Below, piece by piece: positions 26,687 through 61,657 of a DNA stretch of 64,000 nt. Every line of letters starts with the position of its first letter. Within the stretch, counting starts at the first letter, position 1. The notes under the pieces are model-generated. The model was not told the origin of the DNA and did no database searches. It saw only the letters and a list, made by a program, of their open reading frames with translations. Origin of the DNA: Oscillibacter sp. ER4 (lineage in GTDB: Bacteria; Bacillota; Clostridia; Oscillospirales; Oscillospiraceae); the NCBI RefSeq assembly GCF_000765235.1, contig NZ_JPJG01000033.1, positions 1-64,000 on the forward strand, written 5' to 3'. The translations under genes and the position numbers were made by a program.

Positions 26687-28318
26687 TCATTTTTGCTGGG
26701 TGATCTCCGTCCCGTCCTTGAACCGGACAAGGAGGTTCTCCTTGTCCAGCACCTTGATATTGCTGATGAGCTGGCGCACGGTCAGCTCATCGAAGGCACT
26801 GATCACGCCGGTTGCGCCATCCACCTCCTTGCTGAGCTCCTCCAGCCGATGTTCGAATACCGGGGCAGTCTGCTGGGTACGCTCCAGCTCCGCTTTCTTC
26901 GCCATCAGGCTGGTTTTGGCCATGTTTACCTGCTGGAGCTCCTCATCATAGTCGGTGCAGTCCGGCCCGGCGCCCACAATCAGCTGGAAGATCTCCAGCT
27001 GGCGTTCCTGCAGGCCGCGTATCCGCGCCTCCACCGCCGGCAGAGTCAGTTCCTGTTCCTCCCAGGCGAGGGCGGCGGCAATGCTGGCTTTCAGTTCGTC
27101 CTTGGCCAGCTGTGTTTGAAACAGCTCGTTCATGGCCCCGATCACCGCGGCGTGAAGATCCTGCTCGTCCCAGGTGGGCGATTTCTTGCAGAGCTTTTTT
27201 CCATGCTCCAGCCGGTTCTGGCACCGCCACACCACCCGCTTGGCGCCTTTCTGTGTCCAGATCACCCGCCGATAGGGGCTGCCGCATTCTCCGCAGACCA
27301 GCAGTTCACTGAGAACATATTTGCCGCAGTATTTACCCAGCTCCGTCTTGGTTTTTGACGATGTCTTTCGGATGCTGGAGCGCCGGGCAATTTCCTCCTG
27401 CACCTTCTGAAAGGTTTCCCTGTCAATGATGGCCGGATGGCAGTCGTGTACATAATATTTCGGCAGCTCACCGTTGTTGACCCGCTTTTCTTTGCTGAAC
27501 AGGTCCGCGATGTAGGTCTTTTGAAGCAGGGCGTCTCCAATATATTTCTCGTTGCAGAGCATCTTCTGGATGACGCTGTCATGCCAGATTTCTTTGCCGG
27601 TAGCGGTTTTGATCCCGTCCGCCATCAGGTCGGTGACGATCTGGCGGACGCTATGGCCCAGCAGATACCGGGAAAAAATCCGGCGCACCACCGCAGCCTG
27701 CTCCGGATCGATTTCCGGCCGGCCGTCCGCTCCCCTCCGGTAGCCGAGGAAGCCTTTGTAGTTGTAGTAGACCTTCCCGTCCTGGAAGTTCTTGCGGTGG
27801 CCCCACTTCACATTCCCGCTGAGGGATTCGCTCTCCGCCTGGGCCTGGCTCATCATAAAGGTGAGAATCATCTCATTGTCCATATAGAGCGTGTTCACAT
27901 TTTCCTTTTCAAAGTACACGCCTACACCGTATTGTTTCAGGCGGCGCACATAGTTCAGCCCGTCCAGTGTGTTGCGGCAGAACCGGGACACCGACTTGGT
28001 GATGACCAGATCGATCTTCCCCTTTTGGCAGTCCCGTACCATCTTCAGGAAGTCCTTGCGCTTCCGGGCCGAGGTGCCGGTGATCCCCTCATCCGCATAC
28101 AGGCGCACCATGGTCCAGTCCGGATTGGAGTTGATCTTGTCGGTATAGTATTCGATCTGCGCCTCATAGCTGGATAGCTGCTCCTCCTTGTCGGTGGACA
28201 CCCGGCAGTAGGGGGCCACCCGCAGATGTTTTTTGCGGATATCACGCTCCGCCAGCTGGGGATCACAGGGGATTATAGTTACCTTTTTGGGCGCTGCCGC
28301 CTGTACAGCCGCGTTCAT
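26687..28318 (-). CDS. Large serine recombinase
   Basis: 543 residues. The resolvase domain has the nucleophile Ser in YCRVSTDKEEQLSSYEAQ (near residue 40), then GITGTSARKRKDF and SVSRFCRNTLDGLNYVR. The recombinase domain (RIFSRYLLGHSVRQIVTDLM), the zinc ribbon (CGECGSPYRRV) and a coiled coil follow. Such enzymes insert and excise DNA between attB and attP sites without sequence loss. It overlaps the middle gene of the trio by four bases. Confidence 0.93.
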   Translation of the reverse strand: MNAAVQAAAPKKVTIIPCDPQLAERDIRKKHLRVAPYCRVSTDKEEQLSSYEAQIEYYTDKINSNPDWTMVRLYADEGITGTSARKRKDFLKMVRDCQKGKIDLVITKSVSRFCRNTLDGLNYVRRLKQYGVGVYFEKENVNTLYMDNEMILTFMMSQAQAESESLSGNVKWGHRKNFQDGKVYYNYKGFLGYRRGADGRPEIDPEQAAVVRRIFSRYLLGHSVRQIVTDLMADGIKTATGKEIWHDSVIQKMLCNEKYIGDALLQKTYIADLFSKEKRVNNGELPKYYVHDCHPAIIDRETFQKVQEEIARRSSIRKTSSKTKTELGKYCGKYVLSELLVCGECGSPYRRVIWTQKGAKRVVWRCQNRLEHGKKLCKKSPTWDEQDLHAAVIGAMNELFQTQLAKDELKASIAAALAWEEQELTLPAVEARIRGLQERQLEIFQLIVGAGPDCTDYDEELQQVNMAKTSLMAKKAELERTQQTAPVFEHRLEELSKEVDGATGVISAFDELTVRQLISNIKVLDKENLLVRFKDGTEITQQK

Positions 28319-29172
28319 ACCGCCAGCTCCTCTCTATGTTGAATCTTCAATACGGGCATCGGTGCCAGCTCTATGCCGCCTTGTCCCATACGGATATGGC
28401 TGGCGGCCGCTTCGCAAAATGCCCATAGGGTTTCTTCATCCTCCGGGTTCTCGCGCACCTGCCGGACGAGATCCCTCAGCCGCTGGCAGGGGCCGGGGTC
28501 CGGCATTTCATTGTAACGCTCGGTAGCCGCGCCGAGGATAAGGGCTTTCACATATTCGTGGTTGGCGTCCGCCCGATTGAAGCACAGGTTCAGTTCATTC
28601 TGGATGCGGATGCTGTCCAGGGAGGGGGTGGGCGGAGCCGTTTCCCTGATCTCTTCCACAGCCAGAGCCAGCAGGCGGAGTTTCTTTCGCACCCGCGCCA
28701 GCAGTTCCTCGTCTGCAATGTACAGGCTGTGCCCGCATTCCGGGTTCTGGCAGTGCCAGCGGGGGCGGCCTTGGCGCCTGGTGTCCCGCGTCATGGGGGA
28801 GCCGCATATCGCGCACACTGCCCGCCCGCGCACCGGAGCCAGCTGTTTTGGGCAGGGGGCATAGGTAGTCTGGTCACCGCGCCGCAGCTGGACGGCAAGG
28901 AAATCGGCATCGGAAATCAATCGGGGGCATACATCGCCGCCCAGGTATTTGGGATTTTCCAAGATGCGTTTTACCATGTGCTTGTTCCACCGCGGTGTGT
29001 GCTGATGATAACGGATGCCCTGCCGCTCCATCTCCGCGGCGATTTGGCTGTAGGACGCGCCCAGCAGATAGCGGGAAAAGATGTCCTGGACCGCTTTTTC
29101 TTCCTCAGTCTGACGGATGATTTCTCCGTTTTGAATCGAGTAACCGAACGGAATTTTTCTCTGCCAAGCCAT
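28315..29172 (-). CDS. Recombinase-like protein lacking the catalytic domain
   Basis: 285 residues. It starts directly in the recombinase domain (MAWQRKIPFGYSIQNGEIIR, IFSRYLLGASYSQIAAEMER), then has a zinc ribbon (CAICGSPMTRD...CQNPEC) and a C-terminal helical part. There is no resolvase domain and no catalytic Ser, and the ATG directly follows the upstream stop, so the gene looks deliberate rather than broken. It is likely a DNA-binding partner that helps its two neighbours choose or pair sites. Confidence 0.85.
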   Translation of the reverse strand: MAWQRKIPFGYSIQNGEIIRQTEEEKAVQDIFSRYLLGASYSQIAAEMERQGIRYHQHTPRWNKHMVKRILENPKYLGGDVCPRLISDADFLAVQLRRGDQTTYAPCPKQLAPVRGRAVCAICGSPMTRDTRRQGRPRWHCQNPECGHSLYIADEELLARVRKKLRLLALAVEEIRETAPPTPSLDSIRIQNELNLCFNRADANHEYVKALILGAATERYNEMPDPGPCQRLRDLVRQVRENPEDEETLWAFCEAAASHIRMGQGGIELAPMPVLKIQHREELAV

Positions 29173-30759
29173 TTACCGCACCGCCCTTTCCACTTTTTCC
29201 GTCAGCTCCAGGCCATTGTGGAGCTGGAACCTCACCTGCTCTGCTGATACGATTATGATTCGCTGGATGAGCTCCTCGAAGGCACCGGCGTCCACCTGGT
29301 CCATCCGCTCAGGGATCTCCTCCAGATACACCAGCATCTGCTCTGTGGCTTGGATCTGGCGGTCTTCTCCTGTGGAATCGAGGATGCGGCGCCGCAGTTT
29401 GCGCAGATCCCGCAGTTTCCGGCCGATCTCGTCCGTCTGGGATAAATAGAGAGCAGAATCCACGTATCCTTTCGACTTCAGCCGTACAAGGACGAGATTC
29501 TGCTCTGTGAGATGGGATATTTCTTTGTCAATATCGCTGATTCTGCGGTTGGAGCGGAGCTCCCGTTCCCGCAGCTCCCGCAGCTGCCCCAGAACCGGCC
29601 GCAGGATGCGGCCGCTGCCCTGCTTCAGCTTCCGGCAGAGACGGAGGACCGCCTGTTCGATCTCCGTTTCCGGAATTTGTGGGATCGGGCAGTCAGCCTT
29701 GGACTTGTCATGCCGGTGGCAGACCCAATACCGCTTTCCACTGGAGATCTTTTGGCGGCACATGGAGCCGCACTCCCCACAGAAAATGTGGCCGCTGTAC
29801 ACAGATTCCCGCGGTTTTGCACCTGCTGTAAACTGTTCCCTGCGGGATGCCATCAGCTCCTGTACCCGTTGGAACTCCTCCCGGCTGACGATGGCAGGGT
29901 GGCAGTTCTCCGCAAAGTATTGCGGTTTCTCTCCATGATTGCGCACCTGCCGGAAGGGGATGGTATCGGTGGCATAGCTCTTTTGCCAGATCATATCCCC
30001 GGTGTAGGAGATGTTGGTCAGGATGTAGTGTACTGTGGACGGATGCCATTTCTGTCGTCCCCGGCCCCGCTCTGTTCCGAGCCGGTTCAGCTCTCTGGCA
30101 ATGTCTTCTTTGCCCTGGCCCCTCAGATAGGCGCTGTAAATCATGCGGACCACCTCAGCCTCCTCGGGGATGATCTCCAGATCACGGCCTGCCAGCCGGT
30201 AGCCATAGGGCGCTGTGGGCGGGACGAACAGCCCCTTTTCCATCCGCATCCGCACGCTGGTGCGCATATTGCCGGAGTGGTTGGTGGATTCCATCTGGGC
30301 GAAAGCCCCGTAGATCTGCGCGACCTGTTCCGAGGTCATTTTCCCCGTATCAATATTTTCCTTTTCGAAGTAGATGCTGATCCCAAGGCGGAGCAGCTCC
30401 CGCACGAATTGAATGTACTCCTTGGTGTTGCGGGCAAACCGGGAGATGGATTTGACCAATACCCGGTCGATCTTTCCCGCCCTGCAGTCCTCCATCATTC
30501 GGTTGAAGTCATCCCGCCTGCGGGCCTCCAGACCGGTGATCCCCTCGTCCGCGTAGATGTCCACCATCTCCCAGTCCTCTTTCGAGGCGATGTACTTGCT
30601 GTAAAAATCGACCTGGGCAATGTAGGAGTTGATCTGGTCATCGGAGTCGCTGCTGACTCTCGCGTAGGCGGCCACCCGCAATTTGGCCCGTTCCGGTGCG
30701 CGTGGGTCGATCACGGTAATCCGTGGAGCGCCCGCGGCTGCTGTGTTTGCCGTTGTCAT
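29173..30759 (-). CDS. Large serine recombinase
   Basis: 528 residues with AAAGGAGGT before ATG. The catalytic Ser lies in YARVSSDSDDQINSYIAQ. GITGLEARRRDDFNRM, SISRFARNTKEY and FEKENIDTGKMTSEQVAQIY are all present, then recombinase domain, zinc ribbon (CGECGSMCRQK) and coiled coil. It differs in detail from the recombinase at 26687-28318, so the pair is not a recent copy. It is the first gene of the trio. Confidence 0.93.
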   Translation of the reverse strand: MTTANTAAAGAPRITVIDPRAPERAKLRVAAYARVSSDSDDQINSYIAQVDFYSKYIASKEDWEMVDIYADEGITGLEARRRDDFNRMMEDCRAGKIDRVLVKSISRFARNTKEYIQFVRELLRLGISIYFEKENIDTGKMTSEQVAQIYGAFAQMESTNHSGNMRTSVRMRMEKGLFVPPTAPYGYRLAGRDLEIIPEEAEVVRMIYSAYLRGQGKEDIARELNRLGTERGRGRQKWHPSTVHYILTNISYTGDMIWQKSYATDTIPFRQVRNHGEKPQYFAENCHPAIVSREEFQRVQELMASRREQFTAGAKPRESVYSGHIFCGECGSMCRQKISSGKRYWVCHRHDKSKADCPIPQIPETEIEQAVLRLCRKLKQGSGRILRPVLGQLRELRERELRSNRRISDIDKEISHLTEQNLVLVRLKSKGYVDSALYLSQTDEIGRKLRDLRKLRRRILDSTGEDRQIQATEQMLVYLEEIPERMDQVDAGAFEELIQRIIIVSAEQVRFQLHNGLELTEKVERAVR

Positions 30760-36828: not shown

Positions 36829-37700
36829 TTGGTTTCCTCCTTCTTCTCCGGGAACAGCTTCCACCGGAACTCCAGCTCTCTCTGGACAAACTCCTTCGGC
36901 AGGCCCCGGGGATTGGCGATGAGATACCATACCCGAAAGGTGCGCTTCTTCGGATCTGTCTCCTGCCGGTAGAGCTGATAGCCCGCCTCATCCTCCTGTG
37001 TCCACTGTCCTGTCTGCCGCTTGGCCTGCACAAATGGTTCCACCACCTTGTCCAGTTCCTCTTTGGTGCGGCTTGAGGCCCAGGCTTGATCCACATCATT
37101 GGCGTGGGAGAGGTGGAACAACATCGAACCCATCCAGTTCTTTGCCTTGTGCTCCGGTGTTCCGCGTAATTCCGATTGACGGCGGTACTCCGCCAGCTGC
37201 TCTGGTGTTCCGTACCGTTCCACCATCTGCTCATCCACATGAATGCACCAGCTGTAATCCTCCGGCTGGATAAAGGGGGCGCAGACCGGCTGGAGCGCCT
37301 CTGCTGGGTCCACCTCAAAATGGTCGATAAAGTCAAGGTAGTGGGCTTGGATCAGGGGCAGAAAGGTGTCCAGCAGCCCGGTGTTCAGCCGCAGGTCCTC
37401 TGTCAGCATCTGAAAGAATGAACCGCCTGTTGTCGGTTCTATTTTGAAAGAGTAGAGCCGGTCATCTCCCTGCTTTATGATACAGGTGAAGCCCACCTCC
37501 ACATTTCCATGGCCAATTTCGTAGTCTATGTAGTTGTAGCGCCTCCGGTCAAACCATATCTGATAGGTCAGCCCGTTTTTCATTTTCTTTTTGAAGTCGC
37601 CTTTTTTCAGCCGCTTCCAGCCCTTTTCCTCCAGGCCCAGGCCATTCCACAGGTAGTCCAGGGCCTCCTGAAATAGATCTACTGGGCGCTTTTGCTCCAC
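36825..37700 (-). CDS. Hypothetical immunity-array protein
   Basis: 291 residues from a GTG at 37700, eight bases behind GGAGG (the GTG at 37709 is too close to it). The first 110 residues (WKRLKKGDFKKKMKNGLTYQ, IWFDRRRYNYIDYEIGHGNV) resemble the DUF4304-like immunity fold; the rest is unrecognised and basic. It overlaps the DUF4261 gene by four bases. Confidence 0.6.
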   Translation of the reverse strand: MEQKRPVDLFQEALDYLWNGLGLEEKGWKRLKKGDFKKKMKNGLTYQIWFDRRRYNYIDYEIGHGNVEVGFTCIIKQGDDRLYSFKIEPTTGGSFFQMLTEDLRLNTGLLDTFLPLIQAHYLDFIDHFEVDPAEALQPVCAPFIQPEDYSWCIHVDEQMVERYGTPEQLAEYRRQSELRGTPEHKAKNWMGSMLFHLSHANDVDQAWASSRTKEELDKVVEPFVQAKRQTGQWTQEDEAGYQLYRQETDPKKRTFRVWYLIANPRGLPKEFVQRELEFRWKLFPEKKEETK

Positions 37701-44171: not shown

Positions 44172-47100
44172 TCAATCCCACCAGAAGTACCAGACGGTGG
44201 ACTGCCACAGTGCATCTGCCAAGGAGCCAATGCTTCCATCCTCATTCTGATCCAGATCCGGGCAGAAGCCATACAGTTCTACCGCCACATCCATGGCCTT
44301 CTCCTTGGGGACGGGGGCCGGAAGCAGGAACTCCAGCTCATCGTGGCTCATGGCGGCAGGAACTGCGCCGTACTGCTCGAACCAGTATTTGGCCGCAGCC
44401 ATCAGGTCCGGTGTGTCGGGGCAGTCGTTCCAGTTTCCAAAGGGCAGGTAGGCGAAGATCTCCCAGGGATTCTTCACCGGGATCTCGGCCAGGATAAGCG
44501 GATAGGTCATCTCCGTATCATCATCCCAGTAGCTGGAGAAGCGGTCGTTTGGTTCTCCGCCTTCCATCTCGCCCAGGATTTCCTCATCCCAGTCCATATC
44601 GTCATCCTCGGCTTCTTCCTTGCGCTGGCCGATCAGTGCCTCCAGGACCGCCTTGCTGTCCTTGACAGGTGCAGACAGTATCTTCTTCCGGTAGTCGGCT
44701 ACCTTGTCCGGGTCGAAAGCATAGTCGTCCTCACCATCACTGTCCGGGTCGGAATTCATAATGAGGCACTCCCACAGGGTTTCGTCATCCGCCTTGATGA
44801 GCACTGGCACAAAGCCTTCTTTGACACTTTCCCGTTTGGCATAGCTGTATGCCGACATGATGGGATCATCGTCCTTCATGGAGGGGAAATAGGTGCATTC
44901 ACAGTCCAGATACTCCATCAACGCCTCAGCCAGTTCGGAGGGTTCCAGCGTGTCCTCGTCGAAGTCCTGTCCCTGCCAGTTGGTGAAGCGTTCCTCGATC
45001 ACCTTTGCCATGGCCTGGTAGTAGTCCTCGTCAAAGGGGATGAACAGCGGGGCCTTAAACTGGAACTCATCGGAGTAATACTTTTCTGGGCCGAGATATT
45101 CCAAGGCATAGTTTTCAATGTCACGAGGGAAATTGGGACTGTCAGGTTCGCCATAGTAGTAAGAAGTAAATGCTCGCCCAATCTTATTGAACATCGGAAC
45201 CATAATCTGCCCGTTCAGTTTGTCCCGAATAAACGCCCGCAGATCCACGCTGGCAGGGTCGGCTTTGACCTGTTTGGCCACTTCGCCGTATTCGTTCAGA
45301 AAGTCCTCGCCCATCAGATCATGCTCTATGCACCAGCGCAGGTAAATGGCAAAGAGGTTATAAGCATTTATGGGGTCAACGGGCAGCCCCTTCTCCTCAA
45401 TACTCTCGATATGATAGGAGGCATCGTCCATCTCACCGTCAAAATCATCATTGGAAAGGGTGCCACGAGTGATGGCATCCTGACGGTCAGGCTCCACCAC
45501 AAAGCTGATGCCGTTCATTTTGTCCAGCAGGGCATCCGCGTCATGGGCCAGCTTATATTCCAATTCATCCCGGTAGAGAGGGATCACCTGATAGAAGTTG
45601 ACCTCCTCGCCACTCGGCAGGATGCAGACCTCGCTGCCATCTTCGGTGTCCTGGGGACCGGTCAGAATGGCGGCGCACAGCTTTGTGCCTTTTGCGAAGT
45701 CCTCCTCATTGTCCATGGTATGGCCGAAGCCCAGCCAGGTATCGCTGGCAATGGGAAGGCGGGCCAGGGTTTTCAGCAGGCGGATGGGCCAGTACCACCG
45801 CTCATTCTTCAAATCCTCGCGCTTCAACTTCCAGTTTCCCGGCAGTGCGATAGCAAGCTCCGCCCGCTCCAGCTTGTATTCGGCCAGTTCCTCCGGCACA
45901 TTCATCCGGTGGGCACCCATGCCCATGGTTACCAGGGTGTAGTAGTCCCGATCCCCAGAGGGCGGCACAACGCAGATGTCCACATGGATGTCCGGGGAAG
46001 ACAGCTCGTGGAACACATTCTCAAACTTGCCGAAATACTGCTGAATGTGAGCCTCGACGGCCTCCATCTCCTCCTCGGTGTAGACCTCGGGAACACCGTT
46101 TTGTTCATCCTCGGCCACTTCACCGTCCGGGTCATCGTCATCATCGTCAGGGTCACCGTCCGATGACGCCCAGGAAATTTTCAGGGTCATCTGATCTTCC
46201 GGCAGACCGACGCCAGGACTGCGGGTGATGGTGTGCTTATCGTCTGCCGCAAAACCGATGGTCTCCCCATCGTGCAGTTCCACATCATTCTCCAGCACAT
46301 AGGACACAAGGCTGGCCAAAAAGTCCCGCAGATCGCTCGGCTTGGCATCGGTGCCCAGCACCTCCATCTCGTCTTTGCCGAACACATCCAGGCCGTAGGT
46401 GTAGCCATTCATGCCATTCTCATCCTGCCAGAGGCCGAACCAGATCCAGTTGAAGATGGGCAGCTCGTCCTCGCTCATCTGCTCGGCAAAGCCCTCATAG
46501 AACCGGGGCTCAAACACCACGCCGCTGGTGTAGATGCCGGTGGCATATTCCTGGCGACAGCAGGCGGCAACCACCTTGGTGAACAGCTTGCCCTTTTCCA
46601 GCAAATTCTCCTCTTTACCCAGCACTGCTACCATCAGGTGGGCACGGTGCTTTTTGGCTACCTTGACCGCATCCTCCCACATATAGTTGTTTTCCGCATT
46701 GCCCTCGGCCTCGCCTCCGGGGATGGGATAGTTATTCAGGCTGACGGCGGCGAGCATATCGCCTACTTCAAACACCAGCGCGTCATCGTCCTTCTCCTCG
46801 CTGGCGTCATATTCATCCACGGCGATGTCCCACTTTTCCTTCATATCCCGGATGAACTGCTCCTTGTCCCATTCTCCCTTGGACAGGAGGACAAAGCCGG
46901 TGAAGACGCCTGTGTGGTCGGTTTCCTCCTCGTCGGCGTCATCCTCAAGATCCTCTACATCTTCATCCGGATCATAGAGGGATTCATGCTCCAGTCCGCG
47001 GATAAATTCCTCAAAGCTGTCTGCCAGATGGGTGATTTTGTAGTCATTTTCCTGATCCACATGGACCACCGCAGGCTCTCCCTGGGGGCCGCAGGCACGG

Positions 47101-50100
47101 TAGTCCAGGAAGATCATATCGTGTCCGGCGCTGGGACAGTCGCAGATGGCCACGCCGATGGCAGGATACTCCCACTCATCGATCATAAACTGACTGCCCA
47201 GCTCTCCACAGAGAGAGCAGCTCTTTTCCCGTCCGATTCCGAAAATGCCGGTGATGGCCACATGGTCCTCTGCCCAACAGGTAGGCTCATCGCAGGGATA
47301 GCAGGTATTCACCGGAATGCCGCCGTTGTGCTGCTTCATCAGCCAGATATAGGCGGCAGGCAGCTTGTAGCCCAGCTCCTCCTCCACGCTGGCGATCAGC
47401 TCATCGGAAGGCGGATCACTGACATACTCTTTCAGTGCATACCAATTATCATCCCAGAAGTTGGTGAGGTCAAAGCCCTCAAAGGGGGTATCACCGGGCA
47501 CGAATTTGGCCTTCTTGTTCCGGCTGCGCCGGCGTTTCCGAATCTCCGCCTTACACTCCTGAATCACCGCCGGGGCATTTTCGTCCTCCGGGTCCAGTTC
47601 TGCCCAACGCCGGGCGTAGGGGATGGCCTTTTCCTCCTGCCCATAGAGATACTGATAGCCATAGGCCATCCGCATATTCCACTCCGCCTTGTCCTGGCCC
47701 TCTTTCCGGACAGACTCCAGCACATCAATGGCTCGGCGCAGGGCCTTGTCCCCCTTGTAACGGGGCGTGCCCTCGTCATGGTCCCCGATGATGGCGTAGT
47801 TCTCCAGTGCACGGGCCAGGGCGTAGGCGGTGCGGTAGTTCCGCCAGTCCTCCGGGATGGCATTCAGTGCCTGGATGCAGCGGGTGTACTCGTCCTCGTC
47901 GTTCCACTGCTCCAGCTGAGCGAAGAATGCTTCGGCGTTCTGTTGGGTATAAGGAATATAGTCCATGCCCGTCAGCGTCTCGTCCAACTCGGGAACCTGA
48001 TCCTCATCGTCCGGTTCCTCCTCGGGCGGCGTTTTCAGATTCACAGTACCTGCTTCTCGACGGAAGGTGTGGAAGCTGGCCCAGGGGATGTCGCTGTCCT
48101 CGAAGAACTCCTTGGCCATCTGGAGCGCCGTTTGGATGTCCCAGGCGATGAAGTCCACATAGCCGCAGAAGAGACCGGTGGCTCCGCCGGTGAGGGTGAG
48201 CACCTCCGGTCCGTCGCCGGTGGTAAATACTTCTTCCAGCTTGTCCCGGAAGTCGAAGATCTTCTGGGTTCCTTCCTCCTCCCGCAGGGTGTCCAGGGGA
48301 TAGCAGAAGAAGCCCGCCACCGCGCCGTCGGCATGGAGTGCGTCCATAAAGTCATTGTCGGCATTCAGATAGCCATTGATGAGCGGCACACAGCAGGTGG
48401 AGCCGGCCATCACATCCAGCCGCCAGTCAGCGTCCGGGTCTTCATTGGGTTTCATTTCGTAGCCAAGATAGCTCTCCAGATAGGCTTCCGGATCGGTGGA
48501 GAGTTCCAGGCCCTGCTCCCGCAGTTTGTCGGGCAGCTGGGACAGGAGGAAGGACGGCTCTGCCTTGGGCTCCTCCAGCACATTGAAGTCATCAATGTAC
48601 CACATGTGGGAGATCTCGCCCAGCACTTGGTCGGTGAGGGTGGTGAGCATCCACCAGACCCGGCCCTCCGCCTCCCGGAGCATGGGAAGCAGCTTTTCGC
48701 AGTAGGCGGAGATGGAGAAGCTGTTTTCACCCTGCTCCTCCAGCCAGATCTGCACATCATCCCCGGAGATGTCCCATCCATCCTCGGTACGCAGACCGAT
48801 GTTCTGGAGGGGCTGACGGCCCACCAGGATGTTCCAGTGCTCCAGCACCTCCTTGGGGGCGTGCTTCTGGAAGTAGATCAGCTCAAACAGCTTGACCTTG
48901 TCACCCTCCGGGGTGAGGATCAACTCATGCTTTTCGCCATTGAAGCCCATCTCGAAGGAGATTTCGTCAAACGCCTGGTTCAAAGCCCCTTCCATTTGGG
49001 CTACGAGTTCGGCGCCGCGGGTGTGATCCTTGTCCTCGTCCATCATCTGGCGCAATTCTGCTTCCATCTCGGCAAAGGTTTCCCACCAGTCCTCCGTCCG
49101 CTCCCGGAAGCACTCCGAGAATTGCGGCAGAGAAATGCCCCTCTTGCACCCGTCGATCAGCTGCATGGTGTCCTCGTCGTCGGGGCGGGCCTCCAATGCC
49201 TTTTCAAAGTAACGAAGAGCCCTGTCCTCCTGATCCAGATAGTAATAGGAATAGCCCATGCGAAAGTTCCAGTAGTAGTCTCCCTCAAAGTATTCCTCAT
49301 GAGGTTTCAAGAGAGCGATGGCCTTTTTGAGCATAGCTCGGCCTTCCGGCGTTCTGTGATCTGCCTCGTTGTTGTACGCCCTTGCAAGCTGGCTGTCCAT
49401 TTCCGGAGTGCGCTCCTCAATACTCTCCAGTGCTTCAATGATCTTGTGATGCTCGTTGTTCTCATGCCACTTCTGGCACTGCTTCAAAATATCCATATCC
49501 GGGTCCTCCTCGTCCTCATCCGGTTTCCAGTCTTTGATCTGCTGGAACACGCCATTTTCATCCCGCTCAAAGGCGCAGGGGGCGGGGGTGTTCAGCAGAG
49601 GGATGATGTCGGGATCGTCGTTGCAGATTGTGTTCAGCTTGTAGATCCCGGCATTGTTGGGGTCGTCCATGTACTCGTCGCTCTCATCGCCGGCGGTGAA
49701 GCGCCAGCCGCTGTCCCAGCCGCTGTCCGGCTCCTCCCGGTAGCAGTAGCCGACCTTGCAGCCCTCCACCGTGATGCGGTTGGTGGCAATGCAGCCATCG
49801 GCACCCTTCCAGTCAGGGAGCAGAGCTTTTACATCCTCCGCCTTCACATGGTAGTCCCGGTTGCGGCCGGCGGCCTCGTACAGCTCCTTCCGCAGTGCCG
49901 CCACATCCCGAGCCATCTCCTGGATCTCCTCGTTGTCCATCATCTCGCTGAGGTCATATTCCATCGGGTTCTGGGCAAAATCCGCCAAGGCCTTGTTCAT
50001 GGCGTCGTGCTCCTCTGGCGTGGCGGTGATGCGGATGCGGCGGGAGGGGGTGTTGTACTCGTCCAGATCGTGGAGGTTCACACTGCCGCTGACGCTGCAC

Positions 50101-50354
50101 TCCAGTAGGATGGCGGCCAGATCGGTGACCACATCAATGGCGAAGTGAAAGTCCATCTCCACGCCATCCGAGTGGGTAAATTCCAGATACTCCACTGTCT
50201 GGCGGAAGTCCCCGTTTTGCTTGTCCAGCCCGATCTTGGCGAAAATTTCGCTGAGTGGGATTTCCTCTTTCCTCTGGTCCTCCAAAAAGGCCACAAGGTT
50301 CAGACTGTCATCGGAACCTCCAATAAACTTACCCCAGTATTTGTTGATATACAT
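44172..50354 (-). CDS. Giant 2060-residue polyimmunity protein
   Basis: One unbroken frame. Approximate layout: unassigned head (1-170); DUF2185 (187-272, GCIATNRITVEGCKVGYCY); TPR-like region (300-405); unassigned 410-800; second TPR-like region (818-931); SUKH domain (950-1130, ELGYKLPAAYIWLMKQHNGG); DUF4261 (1148-1395, NYMWEDAVKVAKKHRAHLMV); suppressor-of-fused domain (1430-1618); DUF7832-like (1645-1760, DDASYHIESIEEKGLPVDPI); acidic C-terminal region to 2060. Several are known immunity domains of polymorphic toxin systems. Proteins with tandem immunity domains (polyimmunity proteins) have been described. This one is exceptionally long. GAGGAGGAG precedes an internal ATG at the SUFU start, but too close to the codon to be a normal site. 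Confidence 0.85.
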   Translation of the reverse strand: MYINKYWGKFIGGSDDSLNLVAFLEDQRKEEIPLSEIFAKIGLDKQNGDFRQTVEYLEFTHSDGVEMDFHFAIDVVTDLAAILLECSVSGSVNLHDLDEYNTPSRRIRITATPEEHDAMNKALADFAQNPMEYDLSEMMDNEEIQEMARDVAALRKELYEAAGRNRDYHVKAEDVKALLPDWKGADGCIATNRITVEGCKVGYCYREEPDSGWDSGWRFTAGDESDEYMDDPNNAGIYKLNTICNDDPDIIPLLNTPAPCAFERDENGVFQQIKDWKPDEDEEDPDMDILKQCQKWHENNEHHKIIEALESIEERTPEMDSQLARAYNNEADHRTPEGRAMLKKAIALLKPHEEYFEGDYYWNFRMGYSYYYLDQEDRALRYFEKALEARPDDEDTMQLIDGCKRGISLPQFSECFRERTEDWWETFAEMEAELRQMMDEDKDHTRGAELVAQMEGALNQAFDEISFEMGFNGEKHELILTPEGDKVKLFELIYFQKHAPKEVLEHWNILVGRQPLQNIGLRTEDGWDISGDDVQIWLEEQGENSFSISAYCEKLLPMLREAEGRVWWMLTTLTDQVLGEISHMWYIDDFNVLEEPKAEPSFLLSQLPDKLREQGLELSTDPEAYLESYLGYEMKPNEDPDADWRLDVMAGSTCCVPLINGYLNADNDFMDALHADGAVAGFFCYPLDTLREEEGTQKIFDFRDKLEEVFTTGDGPEVLTLTGGATGLFCGYVDFIAWDIQTALQMAKEFFEDSDIPWASFHTFRREAGTVNLKTPPEEEPDDEDQVPELDETLTGMDYIPYTQQNAEAFFAQLEQWNDEDEYTRCIQALNAIPEDWRNYRTAYALARALENYAIIGDHDEGTPRYKGDKALRRAIDVLESVRKEGQDKAEWNMRMAYGYQYLYGQEEKAIPYARRWAELDPEDENAPAVIQECKAEIRKRRRSRNKKAKFVPGDTPFEGFDLTNFWDDNWYALKEYVSDPPSDELIASVEEELGYKLPAAYIWLMKQHNGGIPVNTCYPCDEPTCWAEDHVAITGIFGIGREKSCSLCGELGSQFMIDEWEYPAIGVAICDCPSAGHDMIFLDYRACGPQGEPAVVHVDQENDYKITHLADSFEEFIRGLEHESLYDPDEDVEDLEDDADEEETDHTGVFTGFVLLSKGEWDKEQFIRDMKEKWDIAVDEYDASEEKDDDALVFEVGDMLAAVSLNNYPIPGGEAEGNAENNYMWEDAVKVAKKHRAHLMVAVLGKEENLLEKGKLFTKVVAACCRQEYATGIYTSGVVFEPRFYEGFAEQMSEDELPIFNWIWFGLWQDENGMNGYTYGLDVFGKDEMEVLGTDAKPSDLRDFLASLVSYVLENDVELHDGETIGFAADDKHTITRSPGVGLPEDQMTLKISWASSDGDPDDDDDDPDGEVAEDEQNGVPEVYTEEEMEAVEAHIQQYFGKFENVFHELSSPDIHVDICVVPPSGDRDYYTLVTMGMGAHRMNVPEELAEYKLERAELAIALPGNWKLKREDLKNERWYWPIRLLKTLARLPIASDTWLGFGHTMDNEEDFAKGTKLCAAILTGPQDTEDGSEVCILPSGEEVNFYQVIPLYRDELEYKLAHDADALLDKMNGISFVVEPDRQDAITRGTLSNDDFDGEMDDASYHIESIEEKGLPVDPINAYNLFAIYLRWCIEHDLMGEDFLNEYGEVAKQVKADPASVDLRAFIRDKLNGQIMVPMFNKIGRAFTSYYYGEPDSPNFPRDIENYALEYLGPEKYYSDEFQFKAPLFIPFDEDYYQAMAKVIEERFTNWQGQDFDEDTLEPSELAEALMEYLDCECTYFPSMKDDDPIMSAYSYAKRESVKEGFVPVLIKADDETLWECLIMNSDPDSDGEDDYAFDPDKVADYRKKILSAPVKDSKAVLEALIGQRKEEAEDDDMDWDEEILGEMEGGEPNDRFSSYWDDDTEMTYPLILAEIPVKNPWEIFAYLPFGNWNDCPDTPDLMAAAKYWFEQYGAVPAAMSHDELEFLLPAPVPKEKAMDVAVELYGFCPDLDQNEDGSIGSLADALWQSTVWYFWWD

Positions 50355-51721: not shown

Positions 51722-52291
51722 TCAATGTTGTTTCAATCCACCCTCCAAGCGTTTCAGGTAGGTTGCAGGAACCGCCTTTGTCAGCCAGACTCCATTGGCG
51801 GACAAATAAAAGAGATATCCGTCCCGGTGCATCTGTCCGGCATCCACCAGATAGATCACAGGTTCTCCATGCCGGCGCCCAACTTTCTCCGCTGTTTCCT
51901 GATCCGGTGAAAGATGAACATACAGGCGGCTCTGGGGGAGCAGTCCCTGGGCCTCGATGGAGGCGGCAAACCGCTGGGCCGTCCCGTGGTACAGCGTCTC
52001 CGGTGGTTCAGTCACGGGGAGTTCCACATCCACCTGAATGGAGTGGCCCTGGTTGGCCCGGATTTTTGTCCCGTCCTCGCTGAAGGAATACCGCTGTTTT
52101 TCATCACTCCGCACGATTTCCTCCAGAATGTCCCGGTTGATGGGGTATTTTCTGCTGATACCCGCCAGCAGCGCATTGACATCCGCCCAGCCGTGGGTAT
52201 CCAACTTGATCCCAATAACCTCCGGCTTGTGCCGAAGAATCAAGCTGATATACTTGCTGATCCTTGTGAGATCGGGTGTTGTTTCTTTCAT
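51722..52291 (-). CDS. kptA: RNA 2'-phosphotransferase KptA/Tpt1
   Basis: 189 residues. ISKYISLILRHKPEVIGIKL, GWADVNALLAGI, YSFSEDGTKIRANQGHS, LYHGTAQRF and YVHLSPDQETAEKVGRRHGE are all standard KptA motifs. The enzyme transfers a 2'-phosphate from RNA to NAD with an ADP-ribosylated intermediate and can also remove or add ADP-ribose marks on RNA ends. Bacteria lack the tRNA splicing that needs it, so here it may repair toxin-made 2'-phosphate or ADP-ribosylated RNA. Confidence 0.9.
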   Translation of the reverse strand: MKETTPDLTRISKYISLILRHKPEVIGIKLDTHGWADVNALLAGISRKYPINRDILEEIVRSDEKQRYSFSEDGTKIRANQGHSIQVDVELPVTEPPETLYHGTAQRFAASIEAQGLLPQSRLYVHLSPDQETAEKVGRRHGEPVIYLVDAGQMHRDGYLFYLSANGVWLTKAVPATYLKRLEGGLKQH

Positions 52292-52874: not shown

Positions 52875-54506
52875 TCAAGTCATCTCTACCCGGATAATGG
52901 GCCGGTAGAAGTCATAGTCGCCGTTCAGTTCCTTGTCCTCCTGCACTTCCGGCTTGCAGTGGGGCGAACAGGGCAAGAAACCGAGGAAAATTCCAAGTCC
53001 GCCGCAGATGCTGCGCCCGCCATCACCGCCGCAGCTGGTAAACTGCTCGGCCTTCACAACCTCCCGCATATATGGGTCATAGGCGATGGACACTCCGAAG
53101 AAGTTAGGCTCCTCCATATCGAAGGGCTTGTCCTTATCCTCCGGGCTTTCGAAGTGGTGCAGGTGCATGGAGTAGTCCATTCCATCTCCCCAGGGGAACA
53201 GGGTGCGGCACCCGCCGCCGCACAGATAGGCCCACTCGTCTGCCGTAGGCAGTGAGAGCCCCTGCTTTTCCAGCCCGGCAAGGAGTTCATCGTAATCAGT
53301 GCGGTTATAGATACAGATCTGAAAGCCCTTTTCCGTCCGCTCAATGCGGGCTGACTGGTGCATAGTAAGGCTGTCAAGGTCACTCCAAGCAAAATCCCGG
53401 AACTTCTTCAGCCAGTCAGGGTGGGCGGTCAATCTGGGATCGTCCATTGTGACCGGCTCCCAGCAGAGTTCCTCCAGCTCCCGGCCCACCAGCATAGGGC
53501 CAATAGCTGCCTGCCGAACGGGAGCCATGCTCTCCCGGATCATCTCCTCTGGGTCTTGTTCCATCTCCCATTCCTGGAACAGATCGTCCAGTTCCTCCCG
53601 GCTATCCTGATCCAGCCCTACGGCAAAGCGGTCCCAGCCCAGGGTGACGGTATCGCCGGGGACAAAGACGAACTCCCGGCCATCTTTCTCAAACACGCCG
53701 GTGGTGCAGCTCTGGCCCCAGCGGTCAAAGGTATGTAGACCGAGAAAGGTCATCGTATAACGAGCAGCCAGACTTTCCATCAGCGCCTGCTTCTCGGTGG
53801 TTTCCATTTGATTGAATTGGGTGCGAAATAGTCTTTCGTTCATAGCAAGTCCTCCTTCAATCCTTTCTGCGTGTTCCAGCAGATAGCGCCGGCCATCCTG
53901 CTTGGCCTGCTCCAAGTATTGTGGAAGCAGGCCGGAATGGATGGCGTCCAGCGAGACCAGAACAGCGATCCGCTGGTATTCCTGTAATTCGAGGGAATAA
54001 CAGTTCCGCTCCCAGAACAGCGGAGCGAACTGTTCCACACAGTCAGGACGCAGAGCGGGCATCGCCAAAAGCGCTCGACGGCTCACATATTCATTGGGGT
54101 CCTTTGCGAAGTCCAGGATCATGTCTTTGACTTCCTGGCTGCATGGACATTCTGGCAGATACGCGGCAAACTGCCACTTGGCCTCACTCTCATTGGAGGC
54201 CGCGGCCCTGCGGCAGAGGCGCTCGAACCATTGGGGATGGGAAGTGGTCTCCTGTATAAACCCCTCCGCTTCGTTATCCCTGGCGATCAGATAGACCATC
54301 TCATCCAGTAGGACGCTGTCTGCCGTTTCTGCATCCATTTGGGTCAACACATGGCCAAAGGCACTGTAAATGTCATTCCAGTATGGATAATCAACTTCCC
54401 ACTCACCACCGATCTCCTCGGCGGTTTTGTCTGGATAAGTGGCTTCCTGCCATTGATGGAACTTGATTGCCTGCTCCAGCAGGCGTTCACGAATGCCCTT
54501 TGCCAT
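52875..54506 (-). CDS. HEAT-like repeat fused to formylglycine-generating-enzyme-like domain
   Basis: 543 residues in one frame. Residues 1-220 are HEAT-type helices (YVSRRALLAMPALRPDCVEQ). From residue 222 a second module starts with MNERLFRTQFNQMETTEKQA and ends in an FGE/SUMF1-type fold (SLPTADEWAYLCGGGCRTLF, then PWGDGMDYSM). Exactly at the join, AAGGAGGACTTGCT lies before the internal ATG at 53843, a full ribosome site of the kind used by separate genes here. The frame could yield both a fused and a shorter 322-residue product, or be a recent fusion caused by loss of a stop. Function unknown; an immunity role is inferred from context. Confidence 0.75.
   Translation of the reverse strand: MAKGIRERLLEQAIKFHQWQEATYPDKTAEEIGGEWEVDYPYWNDIYSAFGHVLTQMDAETADSVLLDEMVYLIARDNEAEGFIQETTSHPQWFERLCRRAAASNESEAKWQFAAYLPECPCSQEVKDMILDFAKDPNEYVSRRALLAMPALRPDCVEQFAPLFWERNCYSLELQEYQRIAVLVSLDAIHSGLLPQYLEQAKQDGRRYLLEHAERIEGGLAMNERLFRTQFNQMETTEKQALMESLAARYTMTFLGLHTFDRWGQSCTTGVFEKDGREFVFVPGDTVTLGWDRFAVGLDQDSREELDDLFQEWEMEQDPEEMIRESMAPVRQAAIGPMLVGRELEELCWEPVTMDDPRLTAHPDWLKKFRDFAWSDLDSLTMHQSARIERTEKGFQICIYNRTDYDELLAGLEKQGLSLPTADEWAYLCGGGCRTLFPWGDGMDYSMHLHHFESPEDKDKPFDMEEPNFFGVSIAYDPYMREVVKAEQFTSCGGDGGRSICGGLGIFLGFLPCSPHCKPEVQEDKELNGDYDFYRPIIRVEMT
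53843..53857 (-). promoter_or_regulatory. Internal ribosome site inside the HEAT-FGE gene
   Basis: AAGGAGG (53857-53851) is correctly spaced from the in-frame ATG at 53843. This matches the domain boundary of the gene at 52875-54506. Confidence 0.75.
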
Positions 54507-54515
54507 GTGCTCACC

Positions 54516-55205
54516 TCACAATTTTCCGAAATGGTCCAGATATAAATCCCGCACAGAATAAGGGCCTACAAGGTTCGTTTCCTGTCGGCCATCCCAGGAA
54601 TACACATGAATTTTGCCCTCGTCCCCAATGTACTGCTGCTCCTCAAAGGATGCGGGGAAGGGGAAGCTATCTACTATGCTCCAGTCGATCTTGGGTTTCA
54701 GCCCATCAAACTCCTCGCGCTTGAGCCTTTTGAAGTTAAACACCAGTGCTGCCCCAATCCCATCGAACAGCAAGTCTGCGTATTCTCTGGGGGTGATGCT
54801 CTCGCTCACATTGGCGGCATCAACATTCACATCCAGAACCTTGTTACCGCAGTTTGTCCAGATTTTATCGGGAGAGAACCAGGTAGCGCGTTCCTCGGCG
54901 TCTGCAAAATCCTCGCGGGGATACCATCCGTTTGCGCTGTCCGGCTTGACGCCTTCCCGAAGCGGCCCGTTGTACGGGGAAAGCGGATAATATCGGTGAC
55001 GCACCGGATCAAATCGGTGAAACGAAATTTTCAGCAGATATTTGTGCTTTTCGCTGCGCATGAGCTTATGGGGCTTCACGATATGTTCTTCGATCAAGCT
55101 CCAAATGTATTCATCCACACGGATGGATACACGGGGGCGGCCGAATAGTGTGATTTTGTTGGTGTCTGTATCCACATTGAGCCAGACGCGATTGATTTCA
55201 ACCAT
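54516..55205 (-). CDS. Hypothetical immunity-array protein
   Basis: 229 residues from MVEINRVWLNVDTDTNKITL behind GAGGAATGACA. Beta-rich first half, then WTNCGNKVLDVNVDAANVSE and WDGRQETNLVGPYSVRDLYL. No family recognised. It ends ten bases before the HEAT-FGE gene. Confidence 0.6.
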   Translation of the reverse strand: MVEINRVWLNVDTDTNKITLFGRPRVSIRVDEYIWSLIEEHIVKPHKLMRSEKHKYLLKISFHRFDPVRHRYYPLSPYNGPLREGVKPDSANGWYPREDFADAEERATWFSPDKIWTNCGNKVLDVNVDAANVSESITPREYADLLFDGIGAALVFNFKRLKREEFDGLKPKIDWSIVDSFPFPASFEEQQYIGDEGKIHVYSWDGRQETNLVGPYSVRDLYLDHFGKL

Positions 55206-55221: not shown

Positions 55222-55935
55222 TCAAAACGCTCCGCTATAAAATCGGCTTTCCCAGATGGCCTCAAATTCCGCCTGCTCTATGATGCAGGCGTGGAATTCC
55301 TCGCCCCAGACATGGGCGTTCAATTCCTCCACGGTGGGGATCGGCGTGATCTCGATGACACCGTCGTAAAGGTCAGGGATGTTGTGGGTGCGGCCATCTG
55401 CAAAAATGTCGATGGAGCGATGGGCCAGCCGCTCATTTTCGGTATCCACTTCATAGAGGATGACCGATGGTTCACCCTCCGGTGCGTCCTCCCAAAAGAG
55501 CTTGATGTATTCGATCTTGCCAAGATAAGTCCGCATCGTTTTTTCATCGGTACAGGCCGCCCGGATCATTTTGGCCAGCATCATCAAATCGTCGATGTAT
55601 TGGGAGTACACGCAGAACACATCTTCGTCGGAGTCAAAGTGAAACAGATTCTGACCACTATTGTTTTCCTCAAACTCCCGGATCACGCCCTGGACCAGTC
55701 GCTCCCAGTCTCCGCTGCTTCCAGTCAGTCCCAGCCGACGGAATTCTTCCGTCCGGAATCCATCGTTGATTTTCAGCAGAAGGGAGATGGCATAGGGGTG
55801 GTGGGGAATGAGAAAGAATGGCGCGATCTGCTCCGGCTTCACCCAGATTTTGAAGGGCGGACGCGGATCGGGTATCCAGGGCAGCATCTCCCACTGGTCG
55901 TCCGGTCTGTTTCCGTATTGGGAAAAGTCTTTCAT
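55222..55935 (-). CDS. Imm51-like/DUF6881-like double immunity protein
   Basis: 237 residues from MKDFSQYGNRPDDQWEMLPW. The first half (PFFLIPHHPYAISLLLKIND, GFRTEEFRRLGLTGSSGDWE) resembles Imm51; the second (IEYIKLFWEDAPEGEPSVIL, VDTENERLAHRSIDIFADGR) resembles DUF6881. If right, it is a smaller two-domain polyimmunity protein. The ATG at 55935 has GAGGG upstream; a coupled start at 55959 (TGATG) is also possible. Confidence 0.65.
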   Translation of the reverse strand: MKDFSQYGNRPDDQWEMLPWIPDPRPPFKIWVKPEQIAPFFLIPHHPYAISLLLKINDGFRTEEFRRLGLTGSSGDWERLVQGVIREFEENNSGQNLFHFDSDEDVFCVYSQYIDDLMMLAKMIRAACTDEKTMRTYLGKIEYIKLFWEDAPEGEPSVILYEVDTENERLAHRSIDIFADGRTHNIPDLYDGVIEITPIPTVEELNAHVWGEEFHACIIEQAEFEAIWESRFYSGAF

Positions 55936-55958
55936 GTAATCCCTCGCTTCCCGGCACA

Positions 55959-56417
55959 TCAGCAGCCCAGTTGTCCTCCGTTTACCGGGCGGAAGATCCT
56001 TCGGCCCGCCAGCAGTTCCTCCAGCTTTTTGGCCAGCGCCTCCACAATGGCGTGGCAGGAATTCTCAACCCCCACGATCTCCAGCCTTTGCAGCTCGACA
56101 CAGTGGAGCGTTCCATAGAAGCCCAGCATAAACTCCGTCAATTCAGCAATCATCTGGTAGCCTTCCATGTTGCTCACATCCGTCTGACCCTCTTTTGCGG
56201 TCATCAGCCCAATGATCCCCACCGCCACGGTGAAAGCGCCGCAGCAGGAGTGCTCGGTCTGCATCCCAAGGCCCATGACGGAGAACATCTTCCGGGTCTC
56301 CTCGGACAAATTCAGGTGGTAATATTCATTGCAGGCCAGGAACATCGCCTCGGCGCAGGTCAGTTCCGTACCGATGTGGTAGTGGTTGACCAGTTCATAG
56401 AGTTTCATTGTTGCCAT
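55959..56417 (-). CDS. C-GCAxxG-C-C-like Cys-rich protein
   Basis: 152 residues. ELTCAEAMFLACNEYYHLNL, TEHSCCGAFTVAVGIIGLMT and the later Cys residues match the C-GCAxxG-C-C family of small redox or metal-binding proteins only in part. The start at 56417 follows GGAGT. It overlaps the NADAR gene slightly. Confidence 0.6.
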   Translation of the reverse strand: MATMKLYELVNHYHIGTELTCAEAMFLACNEYYHLNLSEETRKMFSVMGLGMQTEHSCCGAFTVAVGIIGLMTAKEGQTDVSNMEGYQMIAELTEFMLGFYGTLHCVELQRLEIVGVENSCHAIVEALAKKLEELLAGRRIFRPVNGGQLGC

Positions 56418-57274
56418 ACCATACTCCAATCGCAAAGCATTTCATTCTGTGTCACTCTGCGCAGCTCGTCCCGCACCTCCATCAGCGCAAAGCCCAGCAG
56501 GTTTTGTCCCCGCCACTTCATGGGGTCCTGGGCCTCCGGCGAACTGGCCGCGAGGCGGATGCCCCAGATGGCATCGTAGGGGCTGGCCTCCACCAGCACG
56601 CTGTCCCCGGTGGAAAGGAGAAACTCCCGCAGTTCGCGGTTCTGGCTGAATTTGTGCCAGTTGCCAAGCAGCACAATGGCGTACTTGAACTTGTCCCATA
56701 CCTTCTGCTCAAAGCCCCGCACCTTGCGGCCCAGGGCCTTGATCTGCTTTTGGTCGCTGCATTTCAAAATCTGGTCCCGGATCTCTTTGTCGCCGAACAG
56801 CTCGGCCTTAGCAGCCATCATATACTGCTCCATGCAGAGGTAGGAGTCAGCCGTCGTATAGAAGTCCTCCATCCACCACTGGCTGAGGCAGCTTTTTGTC
56901 AGCTGGCCGTCCTCGGATAGCTGATGGCCCCAGAACAGGCACAGCTCCCGCTTCCGCCCGGCGGCAAACTCCTGCTGGAGCCACTGCCGGGTGTACTTGG
57001 GCTGGCCCTCCGGCTGCCACGCATCCACCAAGAAGTCACCATGCTCCAGTACCTCGCTGCTGTCCTCGTCATCCCACCAGCCCTTCCAGGTCACAGGCTC
57101 GGGAAAGAGGGTGCGGTATTCCGTCCGCTCCTCCGGGGAGAGGGTGTCCAGCCAATCGCCAAATCGGTCTATGTAATCCTCCCCATAGCCCATGCGCCAG
57201 CCAATGGAGTATCGCTCGATCTCCCGGTGGGCCAGCCAAGGGGGAGGCATTATTTTCTTATCTTGTAGTGCCAT
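56405..57274 (-). CDS. NADAR-family (YbiA-like) ADP-ribose hydrolase
   Basis: 289 residues. The NADAR motifs are visible: LCLFWGHQ, KSCLSQWWMEDFYTTADSYL, CMEQYMMAAKAELFGDKEIR, IKALGRKVRGFE, KFSQNRELREFLLSTGDSVL, VEASPYDAIWGIRLA and LLGFALMEVRDELR. Members of this family remove ADP-ribose from guanine bases and act as antitoxins against DarT-type toxins in described systems. About 110 N-terminal residues with a Trp-rich acidic stretch are extra. With KptA it suggests protection against ADP-ribosylating toxins. Confidence 0.88.
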   Translation of the reverse strand: MALQDKKIMPPPWLAHREIERYSIGWRMGYGEDYIDRFGDWLDTLSPEERTEYRTLFPEPVTWKGWWDDEDSSEVLEHGDFLVDAWQPEGQPKYTRQWLQQEFAAGRKRELCLFWGHQLSEDGQLTKSCLSQWWMEDFYTTADSYLCMEQYMMAAKAELFGDKEIRDQILKCSDQKQIKALGRKVRGFEQKVWDKFKYAIVLLGNWHKFSQNRELREFLLSTGDSVLVEASPYDAIWGIRLAASSPEAQDPMKWRGQNLLGFALMEVRDELRRVTQNEMLCDWSMVWQQ

Positions 57275-60247: not shown

Positions 60248-61657
60248 TTACACCTGCTTCTTATAGCTGGCTTCAATGTCGATGAAGCGTACATACACGG
60301 CGCAGATTTCACCTTTCGCGTCATAGCCGAAGTAGACCGGATAGTAGCCGTCCCCCCAGCCAGAGGCAAAGATGGGCAGATTGCAGTCCGTGTCCGGTAC
60401 CGTCCAGTTGAGCCAGTCGCCGTAGTCCCCCTGATATTTGGGGCGGGCTTTGGCGTTTTCCTCCAGAAGGTCGCAGAACAGGTCATTGTAGGGGTCGATG
60501 TCCGGGGCCTCCTCCAACCGCTTGGCCCAGTATGCCTTAAAGGCCGCCTGGGTCTGGATGTCTGCAATACACCCCATCCCGGCATCCACGCCGAAACCGA
60601 AGTAGTCGTCATCTCCCAGTGCCGCGTCCAGATTCTCGTTGCCCACCATGCCCAGCTCATAGCGGACAGGCTTCTCCCGACTGACCTCCACCTTGACACA
60701 GGCGTAGCGGTCGCCGTATTTCTCACTGGGCACCACACAGATCTTTACGGGATAAGTCCCGGCGGGGATCGTCTGTATAAAGGGCGGTGTGTCCTCCAGC
60801 TCCACCAGCGGATCGCAGGCGAAAATCGTCCCGGTGGGGAAATGGACGGTGCCAATGTCCAGCACATCCACGCCCATATTCCCAATCACTTTCTCAGTGA
60901 AATGAGCGTCCAGGTCCGTTTTGCAGGCCAGTTTGTCCTTAACGGATTCATATTTGTTCAGCCATTCTGTTGTCGGCATACTCGTTTCCTCCTGTTGATT
61001 TGGTTTCTTGATGTACTCGCTCTTTGAGCCATCCCAATACCCGATCTTATCTAAGCCCGCCTTGATTTCTTCCCATTTGCTGCGTTTCGGGTTCAACGCA
61101 GTAACCAGTTCTTTTGTCACCGGAACCACATCAGCAAGCTGGCGCACAGTCTCCAAAGGCAGGTCTGCTGGGTAAAACCACTTCCCGTAATCCACATAGC
61201 TCTGTGGATTACCATCAATCGTGGAGAGCAGATCCTTGGATGCGTCCTCGCCGTCCATGGGATTGCAGTGCCAGGTGGAGCCATCTTCCGTCCAGACGCA
61301 GAAGGTACTTTTCATCTTTTTGACTTCACGGCTGCCCATGAGCTTTTGCAACGCAGGGGGCATCCCATCCGTCAGGTCTTCGATTCGGGGAAGTTTTTCC
61401 TCCCAGTCGTAGAGTTCGGAATCCACACCGTTGATTACACAGCCTTCCGGCGCAAACATGACGATCATGCTCTGGTCACTGCCATCAGTGGCAAAGAATG
61501 CCTCTTTGCCTTTTCGCCATGCGGGGTTGTATGTATAGTGGCGGATGAAGCTCCATTCCTCCTCCACCATGATGATGTCCAGAGCCGCCAGCCCTTTGCA
61601 GAAGTTTTTCAGGCGCTCCGCGTTGGGCAGGCCAGATAAATCTTTTGTGGAAATCAT
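60248..61657 (-). CDS. Two-module protein ending in a DUF4241 immunity domain
   Basis: 469 residues from MISTKDLSGLPNAERLKNFC behind GGAGG. The first 200 residues resemble no named family. From the internal MPTTEWLNKYESVKDKL a second module of 243 residues begins; its C-terminal part (KICVVPSEKYGDRYACVKVE, VSREKPVRYELGM, FGVDAGMGCIADI) is a DUF4241 domain. CAGGAGGAAACGAGT precedes the internal ATG at 60979, so, as in 52875-54506, a full gene start stays at the join of the two modules. This suggests a fusion by loss of the first stop, or two products from one frame. Confidence 0.75.
   Translation of the reverse strand: MISTKDLSGLPNAERLKNFCKGLAALDIIMVEEEWSFIRHYTYNPAWRKGKEAFFATDGSDQSMIVMFAPEGCVINGVDSELYDWEEKLPRIEDLTDGMPPALQKLMGSREVKKMKSTFCVWTEDGSTWHCNPMDGEDASKDLLSTIDGNPQSYVDYGKWFYPADLPLETVRQLADVVPVTKELVTALNPKRSKWEEIKAGLDKIGYWDGSKSEYIKKPNQQEETSMPTTEWLNKYESVKDKLACKTDLDAHFTEKVIGNMGVDVLDIGTVHFPTGTIFACDPLVELEDTPPFIQTIPAGTYPVKICVVPSEKYGDRYACVKVEVSREKPVRYELGMVGNENLDAALGDDDYFGFGVDAGMGCIADIQTQAAFKAYWAKRLEEAPDIDPYNDLFCDLLEENAKARPKYQGDYGDWLNWTVPDTDCNLPIFASGWGDGYYPVYFGYDAKGEICAVYVRFIDIEASYKKQV
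60979..60993 (-). promoter_or_regulatory. Internal ribosome site inside the DUF4241 gene
   Basis: AGGAGGA (60993-60987) lies seven bases before the in-frame ATG at 60979, at the boundary of the two modules. Confidence 0.75.

Follow-up and report, generated by a model that had tools for sequence, protein, structure and literature searches.

In-frame fusion of two genes at a ribosome-binding site within a polyimmunity island of Oscillibacter sp. ER4, with two probable products of one reading frame

A reading frame of Oscillibacter sp. ER4 unites an upstream module with a formylglycine-enzyme-like (FGE-like) module and retains a full Shine-Dalgarno (SD) sequence and an in-frame ATG at the place where the two meet. 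The comparison of relatives establishes, at sequence level, a genuine gene fusion, since both the separate and the fused states occur among them, the joint is mosaic and the downstream start signal is intact. Taken as a whole, the explanation that we favor with good confidence is an in-frame fusion, at a ribosome site, of adjacent genes of a polyimmunity island, with two products and a role in immunity. Formation of two products (543 and 322 amino acids) from the one frame is probable, judging from the start signal and by analogy, and the genomic context by itself makes it reasonable to expect that both modules confer immunity against toxins of neighbors. The features of the window, i.e. the whole analyzed stretch of 64,000 nucleotides, are collected in Table 1.

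Table 1 Coordinates of the features of the window
Feature	Position	Strand	Basis or remark
Fused reading frame, 'HEAT-like' helical and FGE-like modules	52875..54506	-	Open frame; fused loci in relatives
Upstream module, 221 aa, predicted all-helical	53844..54506	-	Separate gene in 10 named class-B loci
FGE-like module, 322 aa	52875..53843	-	Stand-alone in most relatives and in distant homologues
Internal SD AAGGAGG, inside the 9-nt AGGAGGACT of the recombination joint	53851..53857	-	7 nt before ATG 53843
Internal ATG, start codon of the FGE-like gene in relatives	53841..53843	-	Junction comparison
SD GAGGTG of the fused frame's own start at 54506	54512..54517	-	
Second fused frame: N-module, tail of 75-aa Zn-ribbon gene, DUF4241	60248..61657	-	
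Internal SD AGGAGG, 8 nt before ATG 60979 (DUF4241 start in relatives)	60988..60993	-	
Third mosaic joint, Imm51 fused to DUF6881, without SD at the join	55222..55959	-	
2060-aa polyimmunity protein: Imm68, Imm33, SUKH, DUF4261, SUFU, DUF7832, DUF4253	44172..50354	-	
Large serine recombinase genes near the island	26687..30759	-	

The frame encodes 543 amino acids without an internal stop, and the internal ATG corresponds to residue 222 (counted from 1), from which a product of 322 residues would begin. The plus strand reads CCTCCTT at 53851-53857, which confirmed on the minus strand the motif before residue 222 that had been noticed in the sequence-only reading, and its spacing is 7 nt. The same reading had held that random coding sequence seldom gives consensus spacing at a domain boundary. 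Of the 318 in-frame ATGs that lie inside the likely genes of the window seven were preceded by an SD match of at least 6 nt at a spacing of 4-10 nt, and only those at 53843 and 36828 by AAGGAGG. The site at 36828 looks like a mis-assigned gene start; in the DUF4261 gene concerned (35950-36930, minus strand) the arrangement AAGGAGG-7-ATG suggests that the true start lies at about residue 35 and not at the first ATG. When the energy of pairing with the 16S tail (anti-SD duplex) was compared over 150 internal ATGs of the island genes, the site at 53843 ranked first with -12.1 kcal/mol (median -3.45 kcal/mol), and the frame's own start was weaker (-9.9 kcal/mol). Accessibility of the internal site was similar (9.3 v 8.3 kcal/mol to open).

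A chance SD-like sequence within an ordinary two-domain gene is conceivable in so far as matches of at least 6 nt precede about 2% of internal ATGs, some of them in Glu- or Gly-rich linkers, e.g. at residue 286 of the 2060-amino-acid protein. However, dozens of relatives have a stand-alone gene that begins with the internal ATG, and the SD together with everything that follows it up to nucleotide 60 of the FGE gene is identical in DNA to one of the loci, L003. We regard coincidence as very improbable and reject it on the comparison with stand-alone relatives sharing the ATG.

When 84,980 species genomes were scanned, the FGE-like module was found at 54 loci (68-96% identity) distributed over several families of gut Bacillota; within the genus it occurred in the window's own genome only, among 18 genomes searched, which points to horizontal spread. 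Searches of viral contigs with both modules gave no relatives. The loci were divided according to the junction into those with a fused frame, those with separate genes and a GTGA overlap, those with a TAG inside the SD after a DUF6966 gene, and others. The in-frame fusion (class A) is present at 11 loci (the window, L019, L025-L028, L031, L037, L041, L042 and L072, the last being a Subdoligranulum plasmid record) and all 11 retain AAGGAG. At the 10 named loci of class B the same upstream gene is separate and the spacer is one base shorter; this gene ends with ...EGGLL-TGA, and its TGA overlaps the GTG start of the FGE-like gene (GTGA). Two of the fused loci, L026 and L042, belong to Anaerotruncus colihominis DSM 17241, and the class-B locus L005 to Flavonifractor sp. 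An10. In class C (about 20 loci) the gene upstream is the unrelated DUF6966, the TAG stop of which lies inside the SD (CTG TAG GAGG). Two loci, L044 and L046 (class D), have the FGE-like module fused to an upstream protein of about 500 amino acids without an SD at the joint; in both, the joint between FGE and DUF4241 does have an SD (AAAGGAG before the ATG), with an open frame of 834-842 codons ahead of DUF4241. These two loci represent a triple in-frame fusion of about 1080 amino acids, composed of a propeller-like module (weak DUF6630 match), the FGE-like module and DUF4241. At L058, around position 2127, about 8 FGE codons are all that follows the HEAT-like gene before the sequence becomes unrelated, so that here too a breakpoint lies close to a gene start.

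Distant homologues of the FGE-like module (27-40% identity, 318-354 amino acids) are stand-alone and start at the equivalent place, which makes separation the ancestral state of this gene. Homologues with separate genes and a stop, for which the sequence-only reading had advised to look, do exist, with TGA over the downstream start or TAG within the SD. The opposite outcome which it had named, homologues always fused and the ribosome motif not conserved, is contradicted by these separate forms together with the retention of the motif in the fused ones. Its placing of the domain join exactly at the internal ATG also stands, since the stand-alone relatives start there, independently of how the two modules are labeled.

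In aligned DNA class B is the nearest to the window upstream of the SD and for almost the whole of the upstream module (660 nt). Beginning with AGGAGGACTTGCTATG, the initial 60 nt of the FGE gene show no differences from the class-C locus L003 and at least 6 differences from every class-B locus compared, and the switch point falls within AGGAGGACT, the 9 nt common to classes B and C which constitute the ribosome site. In the alignment the window joint thus proves to be a recombinant of a class-B upstream gene and a class-C downstream gene. Because the class-C spacer is 1 nt longer than that of class B, the upstream frame passes its stop and runs into the start codon. It had been suggested beforehand that two immunity genes were joined by loss of a stop codon; the joining agrees with the separate genes in relatives, but the stop was lost by a recombinational change of frame by 1 nt and not by point mutation. 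In the remaining fused loci the first 50 nt of FGE form a linked variant peculiar to them, this variant start is now on several FGE bodies, and the fused state requires five changes on the FGE tree.

A sequencing or assembly indel could in principle mimic such a fusion, given that the spacers of class B and the window differ by 1 nt; we give this almost no credence and reject it, since linked substitutions also separate the two joints beyond the spacer and a similar in-frame joint is present at ten other loci in independent genomes, the plasmid record included. The class-B upstream and class-C downstream genes were joined by recombination at the 9-nt block, and the switch of spacer shifted the frame by 1 nt, removed the stop and led the upstream frame into the downstream gene. 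We propose that the mRNA would give a two-domain protein of 543 amino acids from 54506 and an FGE-like protein of 322 amino acids from 53843, and both products would be cytoplasmic binding or immunity proteins, a bank held against toxins of neighboring bacteria.

For the second product, the start signal is both present and conserved in the fused frames, as judged from AAGGAG and the duplex energy. It counts against two products that the internal start could be masked by elongating ribosomes. In a synonymous-site test at the joint of the helical and FGE-like modules 63% of codon columns were invariant, too little divergence for the test to have power. That the downstream start alone matters, with an accidental open frame across the join and a fused product that is in effect the upstream module with a readthrough tail, would fit class B, in which the overlap of the same, separate genes is an arrangement for coupled translation, and the flipping of the fused and separate states with a 1-nt change. 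We consider it improbable: the upstream frame meets no stop until FGE ends, which means that the fused polypeptide must form if the upstream gene is translated, and purifying selection acts on the upstream module (dN/dS about 0.11-0.16) in fused and separate copies alike.

The second fused frame of the window offers a parallel. In all eight relatives examined its N-module ends with ...KIGYP and a stop a few residues on, with other genes after it, and DUF4241 is stand-alone, with an identical or almost identical SD, at L084, L086, L095, L099, L100, L103 and L104; at L083 a TAA stands directly ahead of the DUF4241 SD. At about three dozen loci the reading frame of the 75-amino-acid zinc-ribbon gene crosses the SD and runs into DUF4241. 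Over 20 distinct sequences of this fused joint, the window included, the SD codons CAA-CAG-GAG-GAA have no synonymous changes and the neighboring codons vary; 1.9% of 4-column windows are as invariant. This suggests, with moderate force, that a ribosome site remains of use after it has come to lie within a fused frame.

It may also be that only the 543-residue protein matters, as in any polyimmunity fusion, and that the SD and ATG are unused relics of an old gene start. Polyimmunity proteins with many fused domains are indeed known from Zhang et al. 2012 (PMC3482391), with the 2060-amino-acid example in the window itself; the fusions of the propeller-like module to FGE (L044 and L046) and of Imm51 to DUF6881 both do without an SD, and none of the group-2 fused loci has lost the frame, with dS reaching about 0.23. 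We nevertheless find this account rather doubtful, as SD pairing at the internal ATG exceeds that of the frame's own start, AAGGAG is present in every fused locus and the sister DUF4241 joint shows no synonymous change in its SD codons. The absence of an SD from the Imm51-DUF6881 and propeller-like-FGE joints means that the feature is common, not universal. In many relatives Imm51 and DUF6881 are two genes 300-1000 nt apart, and DUF6881 has about six different upstream sequences across relatives.

The two modules had been labeled HEAT and FGE, and both labels are weaker than the sequence-only reading implied. The FGE-like module of the window protein matched Pfam FGE-sulfatase (PF03781) with E=0.14 (12.2 bits), the best score, that of a distant relative, being 18.7 bits (E=0.0015), under the curated cut-off of 23.3; PDB profile matches, with values from 2.5e-5 to 2.3e-4, covered no more than about 40 residues. 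The FGE likeness is a shared motif of that length, short of membership in PF03781. For HEAT repeats, a profile search with the upstream module gave no family match, and the likeness consists of a predicted all-helical array in a low-confidence model. AlphaFold2 with an alignment of 25 rows gave pLDDT 54.8, and Foldseek found no significant match for this model, so the folds carry no argument. Neither the helical nor the FGE-like module, the two joined in this one frame, matched a curated immunity family.

About 20 co-oriented minus-strand genes with small gaps occupy 40-64 kb of the window. They encode Imm51, Imm-NTF2, SUKH, NADAR, RNA 2'-phosphotransferase, DUF4241, DUF2262 and the 2060-amino-acid protein, in tandem as in a polyimmunity locus, and a WYL regulator is found near the island. 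No toxin domains were seen among the island proteins scanned with Pfam, and neither of the two fused modules has a toxin paired with it. The content is strain-variable, the genes present and the gaps differing in nearly every relative, and the shared gene order is kept, which indicates that genes come and go by exchange at their boundaries. Site-specific cassette exchange via intergenic repeats, as in recombinase-associated arrays, was considered and rejected, as only weak, chance-like repeats were found. Two island genes concern ADP-ribose chemistry, KptA (RNA 2'-phosphotransferase, 51722-52291) and NADAR (56405-57274), both on the minus strand.

A more general proposal, which we put forward tentatively, is that polyimmunity islands of gut Clostridia may be reshaped through exchanges that fall at ribosome-binding sites and start codons, often giving in-frame fusions which keep the downstream start, so that one gene would supply immunity proteins of two kinds, multi-domain and single-domain. 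Because the downstream start survives, the single-domain protein is not necessarily lost to the cell on fusion. If true, there would be a stepwise path from polyimmunity loci to polyimmunity proteins on which the old product is never lost, and this bears on the origin of large multi-domain immunity proteins from separate immunity genes. The intermediates are visible in the DNA as the same two genes, separate with a stop/start overlap or fused at the ribosome site. Gene callers will label such frames as single proteins and miss the possible second product.

The polyimmunity loci and proteins described by Zhang et al. 2012 (PMC3482391) are the nearest known system and, as far as their polyimmunity section goes, the 40-64 kb array shares most of the features given there: tandem same-strand immunity genes, strain-variable and near recombinases, with no toxin domains among the proteins scanned, and fused immunity domains, here in the 2060-amino-acid protein with SUKH, SUFU, Imm33 and Imm68. 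Unlike the cases of that section, the HEAT-like and FGE-like modules stand outside curated immunity families, and the fusions in the window keep the downstream ribosome site and start, a feature absent from the section. A joint with the ribosome site kept is a variant of the already known polyimmunity proteins. The paper suggests that a long array and a large fused protein together are not usual, whereas both coexist in the genome of the window. An internal in-frame product is also known in Cas11, made from cas8/cas10 with expression shown (McBride 2020, as cited in PMC11899642); the likeness lies in one frame with an internal SD and ATG and a C-terminal product expected beside the full-length one. 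As presented there, Cas11 is an established subunit, whereas the internal start of the window is a recent remnant of a separate gene and its product a predicted one. The tandem type VII secretion (T7SS) immunity paralogues esaG and tipC recombine as well (Garrett 2022, PMC9484751), and they resemble the island as Firmicutes immunity arrays remodelled by recombination at short conserved blocks; they are paralogues of one family, whereas in the window unrelated genes are exchanged and the joint lies in the ribosome-binding site, where in-frame fusion becomes possible.
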